From contig CAIRYW010000004.1 in assembly GCA_903882905.1 (NCBI GenBank), forward strand, positions 1 through 49,116: a DNA stretch of 49,116 nucleotides. Reading direction: 5' to 3'. The notes beneath the pieces are model-generated. The model had not been told where the DNA came from. It saw only the letters and a list, made by a program, of their open reading frames with translations, and ran no database searches. This DNA comes from an uncultured bacterium. Its GTDB lineage: Bacteria > Patescibacteriota > Minisyncoccia > Phycocordibacterales > CAIRYW01. Below are positions 29,620-30,828 of the stretch, piece by piece (position 1 is the first letter of the stretch; every line of letters starts with the position of its first letter). The translations under genes were made by a program, and so were the position numbers.

Positions 29620-30828
29620 CTATTCTATCACGCCACCACCTATGCAAACATCTTTGTCATAAATAACAATTGATTGACCTGAGGCAGATGTTTGAGGCTC
29701 ATCAAATTCTACGATCCATGATTCTTCTGGTCGGCAAGGACCGTCCTTAATACCGCAATCTCCAAGGAAGGTCCTTGCCGATCTTGAAAGCCTAACTTTT
29801 TGGTATTTTTGGTGATATCTAATCTGGGCGGTGTATATCTTCCCTTCTTCTGGAATTTCATTTATCCAATTCGCATTTGTAATGGTTATTTTTTTTTCAA
29901 TCCTACCTGATTCATTTTCTAAATCATCTTTTGTACCAACTGTAATTGCATTTGTCTTTTGATCTTTTGAGATGACATAAAAAGGAACATCTTCTGTTGT
30001 TTTTTTTGTGATTATAAATCCATGCCTTTCTCCAATTGTAAAAAATACAGCGCCATCATGGGTTCCAATTTGTTCACCTGTTTTATTAAACACAATTCCA
30101 CTTTTTGATTTTATGTAATGCGAAAGAAAATCTTTCATATCAACATCACCTAAAAAACAAATACCTTGGCTGTCTTTTTTTTCTGCGTTAGGTAATTTTA
30201 TTTTTTTTGCAATTTTTCTAACCTCAGATTTTTTTAAATGTCCAATTGGAAATATAATTTTGGAAAGTTGATCCTGAGTTAATGTCCAGAGAAAGTAACT
30301 TTGTTCCTTTTCTGGATCAATTGCTTTGCACAAATTTCTCCTCAAGTTCGTACCTCTCTCCGCTGCGCTCCGTGAGGAACGACCTTTTCCCGAAATTTGT
30401 TTGACGTCAGTTAACTCCTTTTGCGAAATTTGTGCATAGTGTCCTGTTGCGACAAAATCTGTCCCCATTTCTACAGCCTTTTTTAAAAAAGCACCAAACT
30501 TTATTTCTTTGTTGCACATTACGTCGGGATTGGGAGTTCTTCCTTTTTTGTATTCGGAAATCATGTAGTCTGCAACATTTTCCTTGTATTCCTTTTCTAA
30601 ATCAATAGTCACAAATGGGATACCAAGATGCGCTGCGACTCTCATTGCATCTCGCCTTTCTTCTTTCCATGTGCATTCAAGCCATTCAGGTGTCCATGTT
30701 TTAATAAAAGCTCCGACAACCTTATAACCTATTTTTTTAAGTAAGTGTGCAGATACTGCAGAATCAACACCTCCAGAAAGGCCGACGAAAACTGTCTTAT
30801 TGACTTTGTTGTTTTTTGGTTCTAGCAT
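29620..30828 (-). CDS. mnmA: tRNA-specific 2-thiouridylase MnmA with two in-frame insertions
   Basis: 402 aa; GLSGGVDSAVSAHLLKKIGY, NPDVMCNKEIKFG, FLGDVDMKDFL, DVCIGGGVIE. Confidence 0.95.
   Translation of the reverse strand: MLEPKNNKVNKTVFVGLSGGVDSAVSAHLLKKIGYKVVGAFIKTWTPEWLECTWKEERRDAMRVAAHLGIPFVTIDLEKEYKENVADYMISEYKKGRTPNPDVMCNKEIKFGAFLKKAVEMGTDFVATGHYAQISQKELTDVKQISGKGRSSRSAAERGTNLRRNLCKAIDPEKEQSYFLWTLTQDQLSKIIFPIGHLKKSEVRKIAKKIKLPNAEKKDSQGICFLGDVDMKDFLSHYIKSKSGIVFNKTGEQIGTHDGAVFFTIGERHGFIITKKTTEDVPFYVISKDQKTNAITVGTKDDLENESGRIEKKITITNANWINEIPEEGKIYTAQIRYHQKYQKVRLSRSARTFLGDCGIKDGPCRPEESWIVEFDEPQTSASGQSIVIYDKDVCIGGGVIE
29729..29783. repeat. Palindromic element inside mnmA
   Basis: tcggcaaggacc (29731-29742) / ggtccttgccga (29770-29781), extended inward by tcctt (29744-29748) / aagga (29764-29768). 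Confidence 0.85.
30327..30436. repeat. Second palindromic element inside mnmA
   Basis: tgcacaaatttc (30327-30338) / gaaatttgtgca (30425-30436); internal direct copy cgaaatttgt at 30391; inner stem cgtacctc/gaggaacg. Confidence 0.8.

Follow-up and report, generated by a model that had tools for sequence, protein, structure and literature searches.

REP elements are short imperfect hairpins with conserved mismatches that lie mainly between genes, and in-frame palindromic elements are, by what is reportedly the title of the 2002 paper of Ogata et al., a unique but recurrent feature of Rickettsia. The Rickettsia palindromic elements (RPEs) are small, dispersed, hairpin-forming repeats of 105–146 bp for which a 12-bp terminal inverted repeat is listed; the first report placed them in frame in 19 Rickettsia reading frames, and the one that was tested was active (PMC2229807). 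RPEs are also described in PMC10969869 and PMC6649704 and are attributed to Ogata et al. 2000 and 2002. Other small repeats, the bacterial MITEs ERIC, YPAL/RU-2, and Correia, are ~100–200 bp long, several with target site duplications and some in frame (PMC2229807, Table 1). As far as we found, in-frame palindromic elements are known for Rickettsia and have not been reported for Patescibacteria, since a limited literature search, restricted to open-licence papers, returned no such report.

Here, we examine an insert in the mnmA gene of a Patescibacteria genome and conclude, with a probability of roughly 0.86, that it represents one copy of a small palindromic element that is dispersed and spreading within a Paceibacteria-like order of this phylum. 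Dispersal, copy-number differences among congeners, filled and empty sites, and in-frame residence on either strand and in different frames are all observed directly, while movement as a nonautonomous selfish element is inferred. Against this explanation, transposition has never been observed and no enzyme has been tied to the element. Like RPEs, it is a small hairpin-forming repeat dispersed in small genomes, both between genes and in frame within conserved protein genes (MnmA, MutM, KsgA, LeuS, RNase HII, RecJ, Tgt, and MurC), and it is multicopy, with up to 42 copies per genome. Unlike RPEs (105–146 bp, with a 12-bp terminal inverted repeat; PMC2229807), it has a 55-bp core (~65–71 bp with its arms) and arms that vary from copy to copy, and it occurs in another phylum. 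The likeness to RPEs on which the original prediction rested therefore stands only as an analogy of behavior: the element appears to work like an RPE, but we do not claim membership in an RPE family because the length differs and homology is not established. That tiny Patescibacteria genomes host elements with this lifestyle would point to convergence among reduced genomes, with the Patescibacteria element as a second, copy-rich system for which filled and empty sites are available.

The mnmA Insert

The window, by which we mean the whole 49,116-nt stretch analyzed, is contig C4 of a genome of 745,831 bases in 29 contigs. Its mnmA gene (29620–30828, minus strand) encodes a tRNA 2-thiouridine(34) synthase of 402 aa (NCBIfam NF001138, 384 bits; PDB 2der, 2hma, and 9hlv), and Yonathbacteria and Nomurabacteria MAGs are among its named relatives, which places the genome with Patescibacteria of the Paceibacteria type. 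As had been predicted, the protein carries an insertion at the ATGHYA loop. The region between ATGHYA and QSYFL is 54 aa long as compared with 31–32 aa in most Firmicutes and, among family relatives, 34 aa in G002 and 28 aa in G003, and residues 143–165 are skipped when phmmer aligns the protein to solved MnmA. In an AlphaFold2 model with a mean pLDDT of 87.8, the insert lies between strands 132–138 and 162–168 at pLDDT ~46–51, which by prediction, and for MnmA only, would make it a low-confidence beta-hairpin tip.

The perfect 12-bp inverted repeat noted in this gene is present and fully complementary, with its left half, TGCACAAATTTC, at 30327–30338 and its right half, GAAATTTGTGCA, at 30425–30436, and a further copy of the short repeat CGAAATTTGT does recur inside the insert at 30391–30400. 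The original prediction took the 12-bp repeat to bound an element of 110 nt, and this part must be revised. On the coding strand, the right half encodes the native, conserved Y-A-Q-I and is therefore host sequence; the left half overlaps the left arm and the first base of a 55-bp imperfect palindrome. The element accordingly consists of this palindromic core (30338–30392; plus strand CTCCTCAAGTTCG...GACCTTTTCCCG, translated as about SGKGRSSRSAAERGTNLRR) and two complementary 8-bp arms, ACAAATTT at 30330–30337 and AAATTTGT at 30393–30400; no strand is assigned to these features. The core scores 74 bits (E = 3e-18) against the covariance model R1, although it is one of the model's own 10 seeds. 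We rejected a bare 55-bp insertion into a preexisting palindrome, which would shift the reading frame of a gene by one, so that bases must also have been gained or lost.

Only two G+C-containing long-arm hairpins lie within genes in the 49-kb window (30327–30436 and 29731–29781), both of them in mnmA and both coinciding with protein insertions relative to orthologues, and the remaining strong hairpins are intergenic. The second one, in the 3′ part of the gene, spans 51 bp (no strand assigned) with perfect 12-bp arms (TCGGCAAGGACC/GGTCCTTGCCGA) and corresponds to residues 350–366, which AlphaFold2 places between strands 343–349 and 371–379 at pLDDT ~55–57, as another putative hairpin tip. Its match to R1 is not significant (E 5.4), leaving membership in the element family undemonstrated, and a pattern search found it as a single copy in this genome.

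Dispersal and Structure of the Element

Before any model existed, a plain BLAST of the window DNA against 397 genomes of the order returned matches in nine other genomes, including copies in other families; the best was in G227 (91% over 68 bp, E = 3e-22), and the matches in G151 left most of the core uncovered. Ten of the copies found, the window's included, aligned to a 55-bp core, in which column identity averages 82%, and were used to build R1. At a threshold of E 0.001, and with strict filters that make the genome count a lower bound, R1 matches at least 31/397 genomes. Six species of one genus contain 42, 14, 2, 0, 0, and 0 copies, the behavior expected of a spreading element, with the caveat that two of the genomes are incomplete (59% for one zero-copy genome and 70% for G227). 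The search for other copies that the prediction called for was thus fulfilled in relatives but only partly in this genome, where R1 finds the mnmA copy (E 4.5e-17) and two weak ones (C8:1225-1273, E 2.1e-6; C5:1050-1101, E 5.2e-4), and where neither BLAST nor a core pattern with up to three mismatches revealed a second strong copy. Phage and plasmid records gave no match to the core, nor did IMG/VR contigs contain any exact fragment of it.

These copies bear on the possibility that the insert is merely a lineage-specific hypervariable MnmA loop, its tip drifting freely and its palindrome having arisen incidentally through local duplication or template switching. Across Patescibacteria, the MnmA loop indeed measures 27–74 aa between its flanking motifs and in many lineages accommodates unrelated hairpins or else short tandem repeats, and the mnmA inverted repeat is itself partly native. 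However, highly identical copies of the 55-bp core are found in other genomes, both within unrelated genes and between genes, so that for the core this explanation is refuted by BLAST, and as an account of the insert we regard it as very unlikely; for the arms and for other loops it remains possible. Relatives were also checked for mnmA genes encoding the same residues without palindromic DNA, which would have refuted a mobile element, and none met this description.

Across nearly all copies, core length is 49–76 bp (55 bp in mnmA), with one copy of 93 bp. The core stem consists of AAGGTCx/xGACCTT and CCTC/GAGG, a conserved unpaired collar lies next to CTCCTC/TTCCCG, and the apical loop is variable. 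The inner stem is 96.7% paired and shows compensatory changes. Over the whole hairpin, 22 gap-free copies yield 59 two-sided compensatory cells compared to 23.6 after shuffling (0/500 shuffles). At one orthologous intergenic site in G227 and G157 (L220 788-862 and L139, respectively), the element ends are alike and the apical hairpins differ (75 vs. 55 bp), a pattern resembling exchange or extension of the apex.

Compensatory changes in both stems, together with the mostly intergenic position of copies, are also what would be expected of a structured RNA, such as a terminator or cis-regulator, that is kept for its function and resides in genes only by accident. This is difficult to reconcile with a range of 0–42 copies among congeners or with the use of both gene strands. 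Moreover, no Rfam family reaches its gathering score in the window, and the copy-bearing loci tested gave no convincing Rfam match. We therefore consider a retained RNA function very unlikely as the explanation.

In-Frame Copies and Element-Free Orthologues

Most copies are intergenic, but ~18 lie in frame inside genes. Among 79 copies studied with their flanks, 17 occupy ORFs of recognizable proteins in frame, flanked on both sides by 30 residues or more; an eighteenth resides in Tgt of G189, and the weak C5 copy may be another. Host proteins assigned by NCBIfam are MnmA and Fpg/MutM in this genome, KsgA and RNase HII in G227, LeuS in G113, RecJ in G029, Tgt in G352, and MurC in G369. Sequence resemblance adds LeuS (twice in one G227 gene and once in G147), Tgt in G369 and G353, and a putative lamin-tail protein in both G157 and G227, and two copies are found in a VirD4-like ATPase whose NCBIfam scores fall below the cut-off. 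A PyrG-like ORF of G030 has its C-terminus encoded by the element. In-gene copies are read on either strand and in different frames; the same element is read as LLKVAPLSASLREERPFPE in KsgA and as SGKGRSSRSAAERGTNLRR in MnmA.

Several loops have been reused across genomes, namely two sites in LeuS and those in Tgt and the lamin-tail-like protein. The reused LeuS and Tgt loops mark places at which conserved enzymes can accommodate 13–22 extra residues, and in Tgt of G352 the insert directly follows the CECYTC motif, where tolerance is less obvious. Relative to element-free orthologues, the net gain within the genus of G227 is +13 aa for KsgA and RNase HII, and +16 and ~+13 aa at the first and second LeuS sites, respectively; elsewhere, it is +22 for Tgt of G352, ~+19 for RecJ, +18 for MurC, and +13 for MutM of this genome (compared to G002). 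In KsgA, LeuS, RNase HII, and MutM, the net gain is smaller than the element, so that native loop residues were lost as well, whether at insertion or later. We infer that most copies persist between genes, and that those within genes would do so where a stop-free insertion of a net multiple of three hits a surface loop, such as the predicted MnmA beta-hairpin tip. The reading of the insert as a coding-tolerant palindromic mobile element is upheld by the dispersed copies, the copy-number differences among congeners, the in-frame copies in unrelated genes, and the insert-free orthologues.

Filled and empty states can also be compared between intergenic sites of G227 and G157, where one genome has the element and the other does not. 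Since these pairs come from different species that are ~80–95% identical, the exact inserted bases remain uncertain. Within this limit, no direct target duplication is evident. A MITE derived from a classical DDE insertion sequence, which would carry terminal inverted repeats and directly duplicate its target, would likewise be small, palindromic, gene-less, and dispersed, yet here the outer arms vary per copy without any fixed terminal repeat and the filled/empty pairs lack a clear direct duplication, which makes such an origin unlikely. Similarly, ERIC, YPAL/RU-2, and Correia elements resemble this element as nonautonomous small repeats that are in some cases translated in frame, but differ in that here there is no clear direct duplication and no parent insertion sequence is known.

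Copy-Specific Arms and Insertion

The arms differ in sequence between copies, but within each copy the 5–6 bp beside the core are complementary to each other. Pairing outside the core at positions 1–5 is 0.88, 0.85, 0.76, 0.78, and 0.71, falls to 0.50 at position 6, and is near background from position ~7–8 (expected values are 0.55–0.35 over positions 1–5 and reach 0.33 once position 6 is included). The mean perfect arm measures 3.9 bp, compared to a permuted mean of 0.95 and maximum of 1.41 (2,000 permutations, 68 copies), although some of these copies are orthologous and not all are independent. We know of no such element family with variable, mutually complementary arms.

Comparison with empty sites suggests that one arm is native and that the other was copied from it in inverted orientation, an inference that rests on pairs from different species. 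For the G157 copy at C21:15527, the empty G227 site already contains most of the right arm but not the left, which is new. MurC shows the converse, a native left arm and a new right arm, and the G227 copy at C19:17097 has a similar, less clean pattern. The native Y-A-Q-I codons in the outer repeat half of mnmA (30425–30436) fit this picture. Insertion, or hairpin-templated copying soon afterward, would then write 5–6 bp of one target flank in inverted orientation on the opposite side, so that each copy would acquire its own arm pair. One possibility, which we offer tentatively and hold to be less than even in likelihood, is a Patescibacteria-specific class of coding-competent palindromes whose insertion yields, by synthesis primed on the hairpin or by template switching, a 5–6 bp inverted flank copy rather than a direct duplication, with host-derived arms sealing the hairpin. 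That each copy has its own complementary arms offers a mechanistic hint as to how such elements come to enter genes.

Mobilization

The enzyme that mobilizes the dispersed palindromic element has not been identified. The asymmetric hairpin of the element agrees best with mobilization by a protein, or by a replication process, that works on folded single-stranded DNA. A specific form of this idea is a REP-like element moved by a RAYT/Y1 transposase acting on the folded single strand. The asymmetric hairpin with conserved mismatches suits it, as do the Y1 transposase (PF01797) matches in 20/26 genomes checked, with two in this genome and none in three family relatives without the element. However, no element was found within ~1 kb of the 20 Y1 genes checked (best E 0.93), G030 has elements but no Y1 match, three congeners have Y1 matches but no elements, and the 26 genomes were not chosen at random. 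The element thus shares with REP/RAYT systems an imperfect and mostly intergenic hairpin and the presence of Y1 genes in most carrier genomes checked, but differs in being unlinked to Y1 genes, in residing in frame in conserved genes, and in its variable complementary arms. We regard Y1-driven mobilization as doubtful, though far from excluded.

Other Palindromes and MnmA Loops

The MnmA loop of Patescibacteria is often long, and in about a dozen lineages it contains a stem unmatched by any of 60 shuffles. None of the 64 other mnmA loci searched contains the element family, and their loops do not match R1. These varied and unrelated contents indicate a tolerant site that has acquired a variety of sequences, the element being one of them. 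The mnmA loops of L004, L005, L025, L028, L042, and L048 hold mutually unrelated hairpins or A-rich short tandem repeats, and L048 and L068 share a stretch like AGTGTCTCCGGGGCGACGCCCAAGTC. In L028, the mnmA locus of G048, a second MnmA insertion (about KPGPKSSFKGSPSPGEASAKRGKLD) is found elsewhere in the protein, and the first-loop sequence includes a masked stretch of N.

A search with the pattern CAAATTTC-N-GAAATTTG was set aside because it mainly caught a different palindrome, apparently unrelated to the core, which is ~84 bp long and mostly intergenic in G012, G025, G042, and G050 and 64 bp long in G057. This ~84-bp palindrome (CAAATTTCG...CGAAATTTG) occurs in several families of the order, often inside a longer palindrome, for example at positions 1501-1584 of L112, L119, L120, L125, and L126 and at 1501-1585 of L113 and L123.
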